58,912 nt of DNA from Bacteroidota bacterium. GTDB lineage: Bacteria > Bacteroidota > Ignavibacteria > Ignavibacteriales > Melioribacteraceae. The notes beneath the pieces were generated by a model, which was not told where the DNA came from, did no database searches, and was given only the letters and a program-made list of their open reading frames with translations. Below are positions 386 through 11,887 of the stretch, piece after piece. The stretch's first letter is position 1, and each line of letters begins with the position of its first letter. The stretch covers positions 1 through 58,912 of the forward strand of contig JAJYXU010000185.1 of assembly GCA_021801605.1 (NCBI GenBank). The letters run 5' to 3'. A program made the translations under genes and the position numbers.

Positions 386-2569
386 ATGGAAGTGCATGAA
401 ATTTTAGAAGAACGCAAACTTGTCACGGAGTTTCAATACGATATATCGCCCATGGTTAAGGGGTACTCGGATAAAACAGTTCATATCAATCTCACAGACA
501 ATCGGATAAAAATTAAAGATGTTCCTTTAGAGATGAAGGAAAAATTTATTGGCGGTAAAGGATACGGACTTAGATATCTCTGGGACGCAACAACTCCTGA
601 AACAGAATGGAACGATCCCGAAAATGAAATTATAATTTCCGGCGGACCTGTTTGCGGCATCACACAATATTCCGGAACAGGAAAATCTTTAGTTGTAACA
701 ATCTCTCCTCAAACAGATTCCGTAATAGATAGTAATGTTGGCGGATGGTTCGGACCGTTTTTAAAGCTCAACGGTTTTGATGCAATTGAACTTCAGGGCA
801 AAGCAGAGCGCGATGTCATTATCATTCTTGATGGAAGAGACGGAACCGGAAAAATAAGAATCGAAGAAGCACCGGCAGATCCAATAAACAGTCACCACTT
901 AGCTGATATGTTAACAAAAATGTATTGCCCTACCGAGCAAGATAAGATGAAAATAGCAGTTGTATCGGCTGGTGTGGCGGCAGATCATTCTCTTATCGGA
1001 ATGCTGAACTTTAGCTTTTATGACAAGAGGAAAAAACGTTCTCGGCTGAAACAGGCAGGACGCGGTGGAATTGGAACTGTCTTCCGTAATAAAAAAATTA
1101 AAGCGCTTGTAGCCCTTGTTGCCAAAGTTGAAAATGATATGAACCATGTTGTTGATATGAAATCAATAATTGAACGCGGTCAGCGTTTCAACAAAGAGAT
1201 GAAAGAACTCGATGATTCACAATGCGAGATGAGAACAAAAGGTACGGCTCACTTAGTTGAAGTAATGAATGATTACGATCTCCTGCCCGTGAATAATTTT
1301 AAGTTCGGTAGTAACGATGCTGTTAACGGAAATATTGACGGCAATACATGGAAAGCAAGATTTGAGCAAGGTTCTTTTGACGGCTGCTGGCTTGGCTGCA
1401 ATATGAGTTGTGCAAAAGGTGTCAACAATTATCTCCTCCGAACCGGGCCATTTAAAGGAGAAAGCGTGATTGTGGATGGACCGGAATATGAAACCGCAGC
1501 AGGCATTGCCGCAAACTCCGGAATTTTCAACACCGATTACACAATAGAAGTAAATTTTTACTGCGATACTTATGGAGTCTGTACAATTACATGGGGAACT
1601 ACGGTTGCATTCTTAATGGAATGCTACGAAAACGGAATTCTAAATTTAGAAAGAACCGGCGGTTTGAAATTAAATTTCGGTAATGCAGATAACGCTATGG
1701 AACTTCTTCACCAGCTTGGACGAGGAGAGGGTTTCGGAAAAACTGCGGGACTCGGCGTGCGTAGATTAAAAAAATTATTTACTGAGAATGGATGGGGCGA
1801 TGCTCAATTTTTACAAGACATTGGAATGGAAAACAAAGGACTTGAATATTCTCAATACATGTCGAAAGAATCGCTCGCACAGCAAGGCGGATACGCGATG
1901 ACAAACAAAGGTCCTCAGCATGATGAAGCATGGTTAATTTTTATGGATATGGTTAACAATCATATCCCCACATTCGAAGATAAAGCCGAGGCGCTTCATT
2001 ACTTCCCTCTCTTTAGAACATGGTTCGGTCTTGCCGGTTTTTGCAAACTTCCATGGAACGATGTTGAACCAAAAAATAATGCAGAGACATCTGAACCGGC
2101 TAAAGTACCAGAGCATGTTGATAACTATATTACAATTTACAAAGCCGTCACCGGTCGCCCGTTCGATAACAAACGACTAATTGAAGACTCGGAAAGAGTT
2201 TATAACTTCCAAAGAATGTTTAATCTTAGAAGAGGTTACGGAGTTCGCAAATGGGATGCTCAGCCATACAGAGCTGCCGGTCCTGTTACGGAAGAAGAAT
2301 ATTTATCGCGTCAGGAAAGGTATGATGCGCAGATGAAAAATGTTATCGGAATTAATCCAGAAGGAATGTCTACTAAAGAAAAGATGGCTGCACATAGGAA
2401 GTATCGCGAGAACAGATACGAACAATTACTCGATGCCGTTTACGAAAGACGCGGCTGGGATAAGAACGGCGTTCCAAAAATTGAGCATTTAAGAAAACTT
2501 GGAATGGATCTACCCGAGTTAGTTGATTTGCGTTCGAAATATGATAAAGGCGAATGGAAGTTGAAATAA
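386..2569 (+). CDS. Aldehyde:ferredoxin oxidoreductase (AFOR) family tungsten enzyme
   Basis: A 727-residue member of the AOR/FOR/WOR family, enzymes that use a tungstopterin and a [4Fe-4S] cluster to oxidise aldehydes to acids, or in some clades to reduce acids or aromatic thioesters. The N-terminal pterin-binding domain shows GGKGYGLRYLW and SGGPVCGITQYSGTGK followed by NVGGWFGPFLKLNGFD. The cluster ligands are C334, C338 and C342 plus a late cysteine, C553 in GFCKLPW. The spacing C-x3-C-x3-C differs from the C-x2-C-x3-C of the Pyrococcus enzymes, and the chain is longer than the usual 600-660. GGAG at 374-377 precedes the ATG. Neighbours are a tungstate-binding protein and a ThiS/MoaD-ThiF/MoeB pair, as in AOR clusters. 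The substrate cannot be told from sequence. Confidence 0.9.
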   Translation: MEVHEILEERKLVTEFQYDISPMVKGYSDKTVHINLTDNRIKIKDVPLEMKEKFIGGKGYGLRYLWDATTPETEWNDPENEIIISGGPVCGITQYSGTGKSLVVTISPQTDSVIDSNVGGWFGPFLKLNGFDAIELQGKAERDVIIILDGRDGTGKIRIEEAPADPINSHHLADMLTKMYCPTEQDKMKIAVVSAGVAADHSLIGMLNFSFYDKRKKRSRLKQAGRGGIGTVFRNKKIKALVALVAKVENDMNHVVDMKSIIERGQRFNKEMKELDDSQCEMRTKGTAHLVEVMNDYDLLPVNNFKFGSNDAVNGNIDGNTWKARFEQGSFDGCWLGCNMSCAKGVNNYLLRTGPFKGESVIVDGPEYETAAGIAANSGIFNTDYTIEVNFYCDTYGVCTITWGTTVAFLMECYENGILNLERTGGLKLNFGNADNAMELLHQLGRGEGFGKTAGLGVRRLKKLFTENGWGDAQFLQDIGMENKGLEYSQYMSKESLAQQGGYAMTNKGPQHDEAWLIFMDMVNNHIPTFEDKAEALHYFPLFRTWFGLAGFCKLPWNDVEPKNNAETSEPAKVPEHVDNYITIYKAVTGRPFDNKRLIEDSERVYNFQRMFNLRRGYGVRKWDAQPYRAAGPVTEEEYLSRQERYDAQMKNVIGINPEGMSTKEKMAAHRKYRENRYEQLLDAVYERRGWDKNGVPKIEHLRKLGMDLPELVDLRSKYDKGEWKLK

Positions 2570-2585
2570 TATTTTGAATAAAAGA

Positions 2586-2687
2586 ATGAGTCTTCTCTAA
2601 AAAGGTAATTTCATTATGAAAAAGTTTTGAATTCGGTTTATTTTCACAATTCAAGATAACAGAATAGACCTTTTTAGATACGCCTCA
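2586..2687 (-). repeat. 102-bp hairpin element, copy 1 (inverted relative to 31335-31436)
   Basis: This stretch just after the AFOR stop is the reverse complement of 31335-31436, with one difference noted by eye over 102 bp. Each end carries an 11-bp perfect inverted repeat (tctaaaaaggt / acctttttaga), and inner segments ttgaatt/aattcaa can also pair, so the whole element can fold into one long stem. It has no coding capacity. It resembles a MITE or a transposed 3'-UTR hairpin. Confidence 0.85.
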
Positions 2688-2706
2688 AGAATGCTTTTTT
2701 AATAAC

Positions 2707-2730
2707 AAACCCTCGACTATACGAGGGTTT
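2707..2730 (+). terminator. Terminator hairpin downstream of the AFOR gene
   Basis: A 9-bp perfect stem (aaaccctcg / cgagggttt) with a 6-nt loop ends in a T-rich tail. It lies 138 bp after the AFOR stop, beyond the repeat element, and its stem is symmetrical enough to work for either strand. Confidence 0.6.
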
Positions 2731-2742
2731 TGTATTTACAAC

Positions 2743-2965
2743 TATCAGAAACCTCTAAAAAATTGTAAATGGCACGCACATTAACACTGATCATACAGAT
2801 TTGCACAGATCAAAGTCAGCGAAAATCCGGTTACCCCATGGAATAACATTTTACCTTTTGTGATAAATTTAATTATCAATTTATTCCACGGGGTGAATCC
2901 GCGTCATCCGTGTGCTATTAAAAATGTTGTGGTTCTGTATAATCCTATTTTTTCAGATGTCTCTA
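2743..2965. repeat. Composite intergenic repeat: degenerate ACGGAT/ACTGAT array with nested palindrome
   Basis: The ends resemble each other in inverted orientation (agaaacctctaaaaaat on the left, reverse complement agagacatctgaaaaaat on the right). Inside is a degenerate array of units like acacngatt, broken by a palindrome at 2833-2894 whose arms are accccatggaataa and ttattccacggggt (one mismatch). The same palindromic core recurs at 41651-41713 and 55524-55585. With the 102-bp element and the terminator this fills the gene-free space between the AFOR gene and thiS. Confidence 0.7.
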
Positions 2966-2966
2966 A

Positions 2967-3176
2967 TCATCCGCCGCTTATCATGTGAATGATTTCGACA
3001 TTATCATTTTCTTGGAATGAAGCCGAATCAAAGTTTTCGCGTTTGATTAATTTACTGTTGATCTTTACCACAAGCCGGGTGAACGAAAACTTCTTCAGTT
3101 TCAGTAATTCATTGATGGTCAAGTTCCCTTTAGTTGTATTTAAAATTTCTTCTCTATTATTTAAAATAATCTTCAT
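2967..3176 (-). CDS. thiS: ThiS/MoaD-like sulfur carrier protein
   Basis: A 69-residue ubiquitin-like sulfur carrier ending in the diagnostic Gly-Gly (MISGG). In this family the C-terminal glycine is adenylated by a ThiF/MoeB enzyme and converted to a thiocarboxylate, which donates sulfur for thiamine thiazole or for molybdopterin/tungstopterin. The frame extends 13 codons further upstream into the thiF gene, but the ATG at 3176 gives the normal length and lies one base after the thiF stop, so the two are co-transcribed. No other thiamine gene is present, whereas a tungstopterin enzyme is 0.4 kb away. The related AorD protein of AOR operons is therefore an equally good assignment. Confidence 0.82.
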   Translation of the reverse strand: MKIILNNREEILNTTKGNLTINELLKLKKFSFTRLVVKINSKLIKRENFDSASFQENDNVEIIHMISGG

Positions 3177-3177
3177 T

Positions 3178-3765
3178 CTACTTATCCTTACCAAGTAATA
3201 ATTCAAGAACAACATTTGCCATCATGTTTGCAACTATTCCAACACGCGGTGCAATTGGCGGATCGTCTTCGCTCGTCTCATAAATATGATCTCCAACAAT
3301 GTAAAGATTGTCGTAACGTTCAACTTTAATCAATTCGTTCCCGCCCCAACCAGCAAGACCTACACCGCAAACTATCGGCTTAGCAGGAAATTCTGACAAC
3401 ACTGTTTCAACAATCATCTCTTTCATTTCTGCCTTGTCGAACGCCTCTACAATTACATCGCATTCTTTGTAAAGCTCAACAACATCTTTAGACGTTAATT
3501 TAATTGTATGCGCTTCTACCAAAACATCCGGATTTATTCGGTTGATATTTTCCAGCAGAGTTGGAGCTTTGTACTTGCCGATTTGATCAAAGAAGAAATA
3601 TTGCCGGTTAAGATTACTCTCTTCAATCTTATCAAAATCTGCAATTATTAATTTACCAATTCCAACGCGGGCTAAGGCAACAGCTGCGTTTGAACCCAAC
3701 CCGCCGCAGCCGGCAATACCGATTGTTTTATACTTCAGCTTAGCTTTTGTTTTTTGAAATTCCAT
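3178..3765 (-). CDS. thiF: ThiF/MoeB-family adenylyltransferase (E1-like)
   Basis: A 195-residue short-form ThiF (the family-2 size class of about 200 residues). The nucleotide-binding GxGGxG loop is GCGGLGSN (residues 19-26), followed by ADFDKIEESNLNRQ, which supplies the conserved Asp, Arg and Gln that bind ATP. The zinc-binding Cys pairs of full-length MoeB are absent, as expected for the short form. It would adenylate the C-terminal glycine of the carrier encoded 1 bp downstream. The pair faces the AFOR gene convergently. This arrangement recalls the aorD-aorE genes of AOR clusters, so a role in tungsten cofactor assembly is plausible. Classical thiamine synthesis is the alternative. Confidence 0.85.
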   Translation of the reverse strand: MEFQKTKAKLKYKTIGIAGCGGLGSNAAVALARVGIGKLIIADFDKIEESNLNRQYFFFDQIGKYKAPTLLENINRINPDVLVEAHTIKLTSKDVVELYKECDVIVEAFDKAEMKEMIVETVLSEFPAKPIVCGVGLAGWGGNELIKVERYDNLYIVGDHIYETSEDDPPIAPRVGIVANMMANVVLELLLGKDK

Positions 3766-3929
3766 CAGTTGAATTGATTGTGTATTAAAATATAATTAAA
3801 AGGAATCTTCACTTCAAAACTTTATTCGTCCGCTTGCTTTTACTTCTTTTTTGTTTTTATCCTAAATTAAATTTTTTGAAAGTGTAAGATTTATTTAACA
3901 CAAGATTTGAAATATATATCGGAGGAAAA

Positions 3930-4358
3930 ATGAAGTCGTTGAAAGATTTATTAGTGGATAAAACTCTTCATACAGTTAAAGCAGGTTCGAAAATTTATGA
4001 CGTTGTTTGCTATATGGCAGAACACAACATTAGACTTGTGCCGGTACTTTCAGAAGATGGAAAATTACTGGGTGTGTTTTCGGAGCGAGATTTAGTTAGA
4101 CGGGTAATTGCAAAAGGACTTGACTTAAAAGCTACATTGGTGGAAGAGATCATGACAAAGGATTTGGTTCTTGCAGATGTAAGTGAATCTTACGAACAGT
4201 GTCTGCAGAAGATGAAAGAGCGCGGGATAAGGCATATCGTAATTTTTGAAAATGAAAAATTGGTCGGGATTTTGTCCATAAAAGATTTACTTGAAATGGA
4301 TATTGTAGTTCAGCGCGAGACAATTGAAGTTCTCCATAATTATATTTATTCCAAATAA
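3930..4358 (+). CDS. CBS-domain pair protein
   Basis: A 142-residue protein made of two CBS domains (about 1-60 and 70-132) and nothing else. Typical motifs are AEHNIRLVPVLSEDGKLLGVFSERDLVRR and the second-half RHIVIFENEKLVGILSIKDLLE, here quoted only as family landmarks. Stand-alone Bateman modules bind adenine nucleotides or SAM and usually regulate a partner in trans; the partner cannot be named here. A strong GGAGG Shine-Dalgarno precedes the ATG. It is a single-gene unit between the thiF promoter side and an XRE gene relic. Confidence 0.85.
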   Translation: MKSLKDLLVDKTLHTVKAGSKIYDVVCYMAEHNIRLVPVLSEDGKLLGVFSERDLVRRVIAKGLDLKATLVEEIMTKDLVLADVSESYEQCLQKMKERGIRHIVIFENEKLVGILSIKDLLEMDIVVQRETIEVLHNYIYSK

Positions 4359-10269: not shown

Positions 10270-10413
10270 AAAAATATTTTTCCGGCAGGCAACATTTTTG
10301 CATGTAGAGTATCTTTAAGTAAAAGAAAACAGCTCTTGAGCGATTCGACAAAAAATATCGTGAGTTTACGCTGATCTACAGTTAGCAATAAATATTTTGT
10401 TATGTGAAAACAG

Positions 10414-10440
10414 AAAGGGCAGACTTCGGTTCGCTCTTTT
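10414..10440 (+). terminator. Probable terminator of the ahpC-lipoprotein unit
   Basis: A 7-bp stem (aaagggc / gctcttt with one G-T pair) with a 12-nt loop ends in tttt. It lies 145 bp beyond the lipoprotein stop; the space before it (10270-10413) shows nothing recognisable. Confidence 0.45.
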
Positions 10441-10452
10441 ATTGTACCTAGT

Positions 10453-10536
10453 CTTCGCTCGGCATGACATCACATCGTTTTCGACTGTCAAAATATATTC
10501 TGTAATTGCTAATCAAACGCTTCGTCTCTAACTTTG
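10453..10536 (+). repeat. 84-bp direct repeat, left copy
   Basis: This segment is identical base for base to 11081-11164. It contains the palindrome half cttcgctcggcatgac and then about 50 bp of unrelated unique-looking sequence. The two copies bracket the GIY-YIG nuclease gene at a distance of 628 bp. Confidence 0.92.
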
Positions 10537-10552
10537 CTATCAAATAAATAAA

Positions 10553-10576
10553 GTCATTCCGAGCGGAGACGAGGAA
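10553..10576 (+). repeat. 24-bp repeat of the palindromic family
   Basis: The sequence gtcattccgagcggagac plus gaggaa is identical to 10696-10719 and is the inverted counterpart of the cctcgacttcgctcgg...atgac repeats at 11024-11105. Such words are common in intergenic regions of Bacteroidota. Confidence 0.85.
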
Positions 10577-10707
10577 AGAGATTGTATTATGTCTCGACTT
10601 GGCTCGACATGACATGTTCGAGGAATTAATTTAATAGTTCTATTTCGCATTGAAAATAGGTCATCCTATTTCTAAATTTATCGCAAAAGGAAAAAGTCAT
10701 TCCGAGC

Positions 10708-10711
10708 GGAG
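10708..10711 (+). promoter_or_regulatory. Repeat-borne ribosome binding site for the GIY-YIG gene
   Basis: GGAG lies 7 nt before the ATG at 10719 and is part of the 24-bp repeat that also occurs at 10553-10576. It decides the start of the nuclease gene. Confidence 0.7.
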
Positions 10712-10718
10712 ACGAGGA

Positions 10719-11018
10719 ATGTGGGTATACATACTCAAGTGCTCAGATAAAAGTTATTACACCGGAGTAACTAATAATTTAGAGAGAAGAATAGCTGAAC
10801 ATCAAGGTTGTGCACATGATGGATATACCTCTGTAAGATTGCCTGTTGAGTTAGTTTTCTCGCAAGAAATTAATAATCCTTTAGATGCAATAGCTGCAGA
10901 AAAACAGATTAAGGGATGGTCGAGAGCAAAAAAGGAAGCATTGATTCGGTCGGATTTCAATTTGCTTCATGAATTGGCTGAGTGTAAAAATAAAAGTAAT
11001 TATAAAAATAAAAAGTAA
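10719..11018 (+). CDS. GIY-YIG nuclease family protein (YhbQ/UPF0213-like)
   Basis: A 99-residue single-domain GIY-YIG endonuclease. The two family tripeptides appear as VYI (residues 3-5) and YTG, followed by the catalytic Arg in NLERRIAEH and the metal-binding Glu in AAEKQIKGWSR. The frame is open from 10650, but the first 23 codons are translated repeat. ATG at 10719 gives the normal family start MWVYILKC and has GGAG (10708-10711) 7 nt upstream. That ribosome binding site belongs to the inverted repeat. Stand-alone proteins of this type are of uncertain function, possibly structure-specific DNA cleavage. The flanking repeats suggest a mobile unit. Confidence 0.9.
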   Translation: MWVYILKCSDKSYYTGVTNNLERRIAEHQGCAHDGYTSVRLPVELVFSQEINNPLDAIAAEKQIKGWSRAKKEALIRSDFNLLHELAECKNKSNYKNKK

Positions 11019-11023
11019 AATAT

Positions 11024-11105
11024 GCCTCGACTTCGCTCGGCATGACATCACATCGTCCGGCTCGACTACGCTTGCCTCGACTTCGCTCGGCATGACATCA
11101 CATCG
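11024..11105 (+). repeat. Two 32-bp direct copies of the palindromic word
   Basis: The word gcctcgacttcgctcggc continuing to atgacatcacatcg is present at 11024-11055 and again at 11074-11105, separated by a short variant (ggctcgactacgctt). The second copy merges into the 84-bp repeat. An antisense frame through it encodes peptides such as MPSEVEAS that are just translated repeat. Confidence 0.85.
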
Positions 11106-11164
11106 TTTTCGACTGTCAAAATATATTCTGTAATTGCTAATCAAACGCTTCGTCTCTAACTTTG
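11081..11164 (+). repeat. 84-bp direct repeat, right copy
   Basis: Identical to 10453-10536. The TonB gene starts 31 bp beyond it, so the repeat occupies the space where its promoter would be expected. Confidence 0.92.
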
Positions 11165-11194
11165 TCGGGAAATTTTTTGAGACTACAACAATAA

Positions 11195-11887
11195 TTGAAT
11201 TCCGAAAATCAAAATAATGTTTACGGCGCGTTTGAGCTTAAGAAGATCTATAAGAAAAATTATTTCATTGGTGTTGTTGCTGCAATAATATTTCATCTGG
11301 TAGTTATTGCGCTTTATATTATTATAAAGCCGGAAGGACAGAACGAACAGGATAATGAAACAAAAATTAGAATTCTCAAATATGCAGAACTTGGTCCGCC
11401 GCCGTCAATTATCAGAAATGAACAACCGACAGAAAAAATAAATGCACCCAAACCAAATTTTGGCAAACTGGTAGCCGCAAAAAAAGGGGAAGCCGTTAGC
11501 GAGTTTGAAGTTCCGAAAGAATCCGGTGCGCTAACAGATGTAAAAGTTGAACCGCCGAAAGTTGAAGTGAAGAAAGAAGTTGTTGATAAGACATTTTATG
11601 TTGCTGTTGATATGATGCCTGAACCGAGCGGCGGCATTGAAGCGATTCAAAAAAAAATAATTTATCCCCCAAACGCACGCAGTGATAAAGTCGAAGGCAA
11701 AGTAATCATAAAGGCGTTCATTGATGAATCCGGTTCAGTAAGAAGAGCTGAAGTTATAAAAGGAATTGGAAGCGGTTGTGATGAAGCCGCTATTGCCGCG
11801 GTGATGAGTTCAAGATTTCGACCTGGCAGAATGAATGGGAAAGTAGTAAAGGTTCAGATGACTATTTCTCTTGTGTTTAGGTTGTAA
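11195..11887 (+). CDS. tonB: TonB family energy transducer
   Basis: A 230-residue TonB-like protein. Residues about 24-43 form the single inner-membrane helix, followed by a Pro/Glu/Lys-rich periplasmic spacer with EPPKVEVKKEVVD and a TonB C-terminal domain from about 145 (YPPNARSDKVEGKVIIKAF, then SSRFRPGRMNGKVV). It would couple proton-motive force to TonB-dependent receptors such as the one encoded convergently at 12024-13844. No ATG is available: TTG at 11195 is the most upstream start giving the usual NxVYGAFELKKIY lead. Copies of an 84-bp repeat end 31 bp upstream. Confidence 0.88.
   Translation: MNSENQNNVYGAFELKKIYKKNYFIGVVAAIIFHLVVIALYIIIKPEGQNEQDNETKIRILKYAELGPPPSIIRNEQPTEKINAPKPNFGKLVAAKKGEAVSEFEVPKESGALTDVKVEPPKVEVKKEVVDKTFYVAVDMMPEPSGGIEAIQKKIIYPPNARSDKVEGKVIIKAFIDESGSVRRAEVIKGIGSGCDEAAIAAVMSSRFRPGRMNGKVVKVQMTISLVFRL

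Follow-up and report, generated by a model that had tools for sequence, protein, structure and literature searches.

The stretch of DNA analyzed here (the window; 58,912 nucleotides of contig JAJYXU010000185.1 from the Bacteroidota bacterium assembly GCA_021801605.1) harbors a small gene encoding a GIY-YIG nuclease, which is located between two hairpins. Comparison with related loci revealed that genes of this kind are associated with particular hairpin classes, and that gene and hairpins together are present at some sites and absent from others. The following features were identified in the window, where class I denotes a hairpin with a variable stem and then GAG...TCGA:

10719..11018, plus strand: small GIY-YIG nuclease gene encoding 99 aa (PF01541, E 1.3e-16; stop codon 11016-11018)
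10696..10721, plus strand: left class I hairpin with the variant tag GAG..ACGA, deduced from sequence and DNA fold (GGAG 10708-10711 inside, start codon in the 3' arm)
11020..11046, minus strand: right class I hairpin, GAG..TCGA on the minus strand, deduced from sequence and DNA fold (5-bp stem)
11073..11096, minus strand: second right copy of the class I hairpin (direct repeat family D1; 16-mer match at 11081-11096)
10553..10613, no strand assigned: gene-free forward-reverse hairpin doublet (REPIN-like) upstream of the unit (forward copy at 10553, reverse hairpin at 10586-10613)
10447..10536, plus strand: 90-nt direct repeat, left copy enclosing the unit (98% identical to 11075-11164)
11075..11164, plus strand: 90-nt direct repeat, right copy (98% identical to 10447-10536)

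A preliminary description of the locus had reported inverted repeats on both sides of the gene, and this was confirmed, since the left repeat GTCATTCCGAGCGGAGACGAGG (10696-10717) and the right repeat GTCATGCCGAGCGAAGTCGAGG (11025-11046, minus strand) are identical in 19 of 22 positions. Likewise, the right repeat begins 6 bp past the stop codon, and the GGAG lies inside the left repeat, seven bases 5' of the ATG (10719-10721). The 22-nt left repeat already ends at 10717, but the hairpin that it forms contains the ATG in its 3' arm. Each side represents a complete hairpin of its own, with the conserved bases in the loop region. On the left, CATTCC (10698-10703) pairs with GGAATG (10716-10721), so that the ATG is part of the stem and the GGAG belongs to the loop, and on the right, ATGCC (11022-11026) pairs with GGCAT (11039-11043). 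A single palindrome enclosing the gene was considered and rejected, because a separate hairpin is formed on each side and hairpins of similar type exist solo and in doublets. An automated repeat search of positions 10400-11400 reported no inverted pair, because no exact 9-nt seed spans the mismatches, and no Rfam family was detected between 10200 and 11300 at E values up to 1.

GIY-YIG was the only domain found in the encoded protein, and its catalytic Tyr, Arg, and Glu, together with this domain, place it within the GIY-YIG superfamily. In an alignment of 27 sequences, Y4, Y14, R24, and H28 were invariant and E61 was present in at least 90%, and all five residues were invariant in an alignment of 33 sequences. 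A structure model built from A3 (pLDDT 84) was compared by Foldseek, and the predicted fold matched the UPF0213 structures 1zg2 (E 4.9e-5) and 1ywl (1.6e-3), followed by weak matches to HIGLE and Slx1 (0.02-0.1). The PDB entries 1zg2 and 1ywl were the best matches by sequence as well as by structure; Slx1, the weak structural neighbor, is a structure-specific nuclease of branched DNA. Matches were also obtained in 21 plasmid records and in 20 phage records, all of them below 60% identity.

Copies of the hairpin are dispersed in the same genome. The 16-mer GTCATTCCGAGCGGAG, allowing up to two mismatches, occurs 22 times, compared to zero occurrences of the reversed control; five of these copies lie between 10453 and 11096, around the window gene, and another one lies on contig C28, where a second small GIY-YIG gene is found at a distance of 30 bp. 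In total, five GIY-YIG genes were found in this genome, three of them small, and two of the three small ones abut hairpins. The third (contig C157) features one 16-mer copy approximately 350 bp downstream; this gene (L011 732-944; G000:C157:41431-41643) follows a tmRNA gene (L011 250-599) at a distance of approximately 130 bp. At 9 of 11 other sites inspected in the genome, a doublet of approximately 70 bp was observed, consisting of a forward hairpin, approximately 20 nt, and a reverse hairpin. The nuclease unit is arranged in the same way, except that it contains the gene where the doublets have a short spacer. The likeness, noted previously, to repetitive extragenic palindromes (REPs) and their REP-associated tyrosine transposases (RAYTs) was confirmed for the arrangement. 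At the right-hand end of both 90-nt repeat copies (10505-10537 and 11132-11164), CTGTAATTGCTAATC..TCTAACTTTG was found, which resembles a Bacteroidota promoter (TAnnTTTG).

Two nuclease subfamilies and their hairpin classes

Homologues of the window nuclease were present in 80 of 96 genomes, its own genome counted, with one to 14 copies each in a patchy and partly tandem distribution, and the flanks of 30 relatives' loci mostly featured genome-specific palindromes. From a species-genome collection, in which at least 564 relatives were confirmed, the best 80 were used for a comparison of flanks. These loci originated from Ignavibacteria, Bacteroidota, several classes of Proteobacteria, Nitrospinaceae, and Chloroflexi; being the best-scoring ones, they are no random sample and include near relatives. 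In an unbiased approach, all pairs of 3+4-base tags within perfect 7-bp stems were counted near the 80 genes (250 bp upstream and 300 bp downstream, 43 kb in total) and far from them (beyond 1 kb, 1,069 kb). The top tag pair was GAG/TCGA with 44 occurrences near the genes (20 loci) versus 3 far from them, and its complement reading reached 55 (22 loci) versus 6. When an imperfect stem was allowed, 153 class I hairpins were counted near the genes, where 2.8 were expected, versus 70 far from them; they were distributed over 63 of the 80 loci, in 37 cases on both sides. A further relaxed scan yielded 198 hairpins near (73 of 80 loci) and 131 far.

For 14 altered tag pairs, the corresponding counts ranged between 0 and 27 near the genes and between 28 and 135 far from them, and most of the far class I matches therefore look like background. 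Chance or generally hairpin-rich surroundings were rejected as an explanation on the same grounds, the altered pairs reaching at most 27 versus 153. The preliminary description had proposed a comparison of this kind between homologues and background, and the enrichment obtained was strong. The highest altered pairs, GAG/CCGA (27 near) and GAG/ACGA (9 near), are probably variants of class I, the remaining twelve being represented by 0-6 occurrences. GAG..ACGA, the tag of the left hairpin in the window, accounted for its 9 near occurrences at 7 of the 80 homologues, with 41 far. At 36 loci with a hairpin on each side, the stems of the nearest upstream and downstream hairpins agreed in 6.6 of 8 positions, compared to 4.2 if shuffled among loci, and 21 of these loci combined a forward hairpin upstream with a reverse one downstream. 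The nearest class I hairpin was forward in 44 of 64 upstream cases and reverse in 46 of 71 downstream cases.

Weaker homologues in the relatives (subfamily 2) were flanked by a different hairpin class. This class II was analyzed at 30 loci from Pseudomonadota, where matches were obtained in 74 of 150 genomes, and the unbiased search for foot tags placed GTC/CCA on top (34 near, in 15 of the 30 loci, versus 5 far). Class II hairpins have the form GTCAT-stem...stem-C(C/T), and the nearest one was forward in 22 of 26 cases upstream and reverse in 23 of 31 downstream. Rfam searches of six other loci resulted in three gathering-level matches, none of them to class I or class II hairpins. Defense-system models did not match the window protein, and gave two very weak matches for a subfamily-2 protein. 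Three tandem subfamily-2 genes, approximately 420 bp apart and with hairpins between them, were observed at one locus (L242; G024:C86:44400-47000).

The pairing of subfamily and class was pronounced. For subfamily 1, to which the window nuclease belongs, class I was found at 62 of 80 and 23 of 30 loci (85 of 110) and class II at none of the 110, whereas of the subfamily-2 loci, 15 of 16 and 19 of 30 (34 of 46) featured class II, and 1 of 16 and 0 of 30 featured class I (Fisher p 7e-20 and 2e-24, with loci treated as independent). Four of the 30 relatives' loci duplicate loci among the 80; they were kept in these counts and dropped, as were two short rows, before a nuclease tree of 150 rows was calculated. 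On this tree, which is poorly resolved and in which near copies help the clustering, the 113 rows of one definite class need a single class change; counting the 36 no-class rows and one both-class row as states, 35 changes were required versus 60 in shuffled data. At a finer scale, hairpin subtype A accompanies 10 of 10 full-length genes of the Bradyrhizobium group with 73-100% identity to the query, and those with 52-59% identity carry subtype B in 6 of 8 cases, with neither subtype at L342 and one subtype A at L346, which lies at a contig end. Subtype A was also present at three gene fragments (L344, L348, and L349).

These results bear on the alternative explanation that the hairpins are ordinary terminators or abundant intergenic repeats, next to which a harmless small gene resides by chance. 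The hairpins are indeed intergenic in the loci read, and several nuclease-free sites feature a terminator-like hairpin at the same place. However, most of the other tag pairs of the same design were not enriched, the hairpin class tracks the nuclease subfamily, and neither class I nor class II was found in the 8-kb yhbQ region of E. coli. A passive role of the hairpins appears highly improbable.

Presence, absence, and dispersal of the units

To follow single sites, 59 genomes near G096, the genome with the Chryseobacterium balustinum locus, were searched with its DUF4241 neighbor. A nuclease gene was located within 1.5 kb upstream of DUF4241 in 12 of the 59 genomes, one of them merely a remnant. 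At L073, valS precedes the unit, and part of the 47 nuclease-free sites have another gene upstream; the genome with the most similar neighbor protein (98%, G122) is nuclease-free. Filled sites typically start with TGTCAGGCTGAGC and finish with GCTCAGCCTGACA. At two nuclease-free sites (L228 and L235, the latter with a base change), the outer arms are joined into one hairpin, an arrangement that may represent either the original target or what was left after the inside had been lost. Between G096 and G097, 300 consecutive bases across the unit are identical, whereas the flanks are approximately 90% (valS side) and 86% identical; the nuclease proteins are 99% identical. Regarding the place occupied in the window, the same left hairpin and gene precede the TonB gene in G001 and are missing from G006, the TonB protein of which is 89% identical; in both genomes, the next upstream gene is unlike that in the window.

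Dispersal within one genome was observed in G217, where four copies with 75-88% identity all start with CTTCGTC. Three of them end with GACGAAG, and one is without the right hairpin, which was lost. No match between the flanks of different copies was obtained within 500 bp outside the units (E 1e-3); the match between L312 and L315 extends approximately 70 bp past the left end, and L315 has its own inverted repeat on both sides. A target duplication was not evident by eye.

A homing-endonuclease-like mode of propagation, in which a double-strand cut at gene-less hairpin sites is followed by copying of the gene through gene conversion with homologous flanks, would account for the DUF4241 site: the same intergenic place, before DUF4241 and after valS in the tested locus, is filled in 12 of 59 genomes, and a nearly identical unit is embedded in more divergent flanks. 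GIY-YIG is, moreover, a classic homing nuclease fold (PMC1564403). The four G217 copies with their dissimilar flanks are not expected from gene conversion at one conserved site, though, the 99-aa protein has GIY-YIG as the sole domain found, and gene-less hairpin doublets occur at other sites. Homing is regarded as unlikely.

Two small GIY-YIG genes of Methylomicrobium sp. wino1 (L209, 1687-1899 and 3391-3603) reside inside a 23S rRNA gene (Rfam LSU, 489-4164), each within an extended hairpin. The same gene pair is present in L210 and L211, approximately 99% identical over most of the stretch, with the Rfam assignment referring to L209 only.

Proposed mechanism and relation to known systems

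As the most convincing reading, which we hold to be fairly likely, the small single-domain GIY-YIG nuclease has the flanking hairpin class as its cognate target, and gene plus hairpins form a unit of approximately 350-500 bp that is gained, lost, and transferred. The nuclease family and its kind of hairpin are probably a small selfish mobile unit, the putative self-spreading of which is supported. The conserved loop-side bases and the freely changing stems suggest recognition of these bases in single-stranded, folded DNA, and the reported work on the Neisseria nuclease Ssn, discussed below, is in keeping with this. Most likely, the nuclease would bind the hairpin in single-stranded DNA, arising during replication, natural transformation, or hairpin extrusion, and would read GAG...TCGA and nick there, and it may thereby cause the spread of the unit. 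Solo and doublet hairpins would then represent gene-free relatives of the unit. The left hairpin, containing ribosome binding site and ATG, might in addition enable the protein to influence its own translation.

The link between repeat copy number and nuclease presence is weak. Among genomes with at least two class II copies, 9 of 17 had a nuclease match (E up to 1e-15) versus 20 of 133 others (p 0.001). A loose pattern, rejected as a means of counting repeats in 96 genomes, indicated only a modest link with strong nuclease matches (31 versus 65 genomes, p 6e-5), and the comparison with the 16 genomes without any nuclease match gave p 0.04, G021 and G076 being repeat-rich exceptions among the 16. 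For 13 Bradyrhizobium-group genomes of the matching set, p was 0.006, with a split chosen after seeing the data. In G076, GAGC..GTCGA occurs 571 times (control 147); this genome contains one other small GIY-YIG ORF and yielded no subfamily-1 match at E 0.001.

Several observations weigh against a nuclease with its own hairpin target. Among the subfamily-1 loci, 18 of 80 and 7 of 30 had no own-class hairpin nearby, and the same was true for 12 of 46 loci of subfamily 2. The two hairpins of the window are weak on their own (DNA fold z -1.6 and -0.9), both stems being short and 14 and 39 of 200 shuffles, respectively, folding as well, so that the case for the association is based on the comparison and not on the window locus. 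Furthermore, the RNA of 10684-10745 prefers another fold, in which the left hairpin is not formed as drawn, and autoregulation is therefore a mere possibility. In 50 Bradyrhizobium-group genomes, the median was 25 copies in the 21 with a strong nuclease match, some of these matches being broken genes, versus 10 in the 29 others (p 0.054; pattern control 0). Finally, G199 (69 copies) and G215 (16) encode GIY-YIG only as a long UvrC-sized ORF, and G337 (128 copies), G353 (80), and others are repeat-rich without a matching nuclease. Abundance of the repeat without the nuclease had been named beforehand as a refutation of the linkage; such genomes exist, but represent a minority.

It follows from the repeat-rich, nuclease-free genomes that the repeats are able to persist where the nuclease is absent, just as REPs can in genomes lacking a RAYT, or that something else spreads them. 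Another enzyme, e.g., a RAYT-type transposase, might disperse the repeats, the nuclease acting afterwards as a trimmer or in the control of DNA uptake. In line with this, the work on Ssn (site-specific single-stranded nuclease), a GIY-YIG family of Neisseria reportedly described by the Veyrier group in Nature Communications in 2025, is said to concern an effect on natural transformation, not transposition. On the other hand, gene and hairpins were dispersed together in G217, and Di Nocera 2013 (PMC3733652) states that no tyrosine transposase gene is flanked by CGTC repeats and that links with other ones are fortuitous. A separate spreading enzyme is rather doubtful, although it deserves more credit than homing.

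Beyond the cognate-target reading, it is conceivable, but at present a tentative proposal, that the GIY-YIG nuclease and two cognate hairpins constitute an autonomous mobile element, and that the gene-free doublets of class I and II, including dRS3, are its non-autonomous offspring. If true, this would be a type of transposon that operates with no classical transposase, and the enzyme that CGTC REPs reportedly lack would be provided by it. Bacterial genomes commonly contain short palindromic repeats. Across phyla, each of the two nuclease subfamilies is linked to a hairpin class of its own, which makes recognition and spreading testable using small proteins and short oligonucleotides. Provided that cutting is specific, many single-strand cutters would become available, with a target readable from the DNA beside the gene.

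The units resemble REP/RAYT systems (REPtron, REPIN) in that a small gene is flanked by palindromes and gene-free doublets occur elsewhere. They differ in the enzyme and the tags: an HUH tyrosine transposase with GTAG at the hairpin foot there, and a PF01541 protein with GAG..TCGA or GTC..CCA as the top tags here. Small GIY-YIG proteins of the UPF0213/YhbQ type share the single-domain fold of the window protein, but the yhbQ region lacks such hairpins. According to Di Nocera 2013 (PMC3733652), CGTC REPs, including dRS3 of Neisseria, apparently have no dedicated transposase, and feature a (C)GTC foot, a stem starting with AT, a CCA tail, and often head-to-head dimers. Class II shows the CGTC/TGTC foot, the AT stem start, the CCA tail, and frequent head-to-head dimers, and fits these published repeats, dRS3 included; in class I, conserved bases are adjacent to the loop, and class II foot tags were absent from all 110 subfamily-1 loci. 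Among the papers listed in the literature searches, none appeared to connect small GIY-YIG genes with such repeats, and within the same scope neither class I, nor the pairing of two subfamilies by one switch, nor gene and hairpins moving as a unit was found in print; these searches missed the Ssn work and so do not demonstrate novelty, and the earlier view of an undescribed system is doubtful. Ssn is said to cut single-stranded DNA at cognate repeats and to comprise many homologues, each with its own target, so that the pairing of a GIY-YIG nuclease with a multi-copy repeat, as seen here, has reportedly already been published for Neisseria. The target repeat there would be of the class II type, unlike the class I hairpins of the window.
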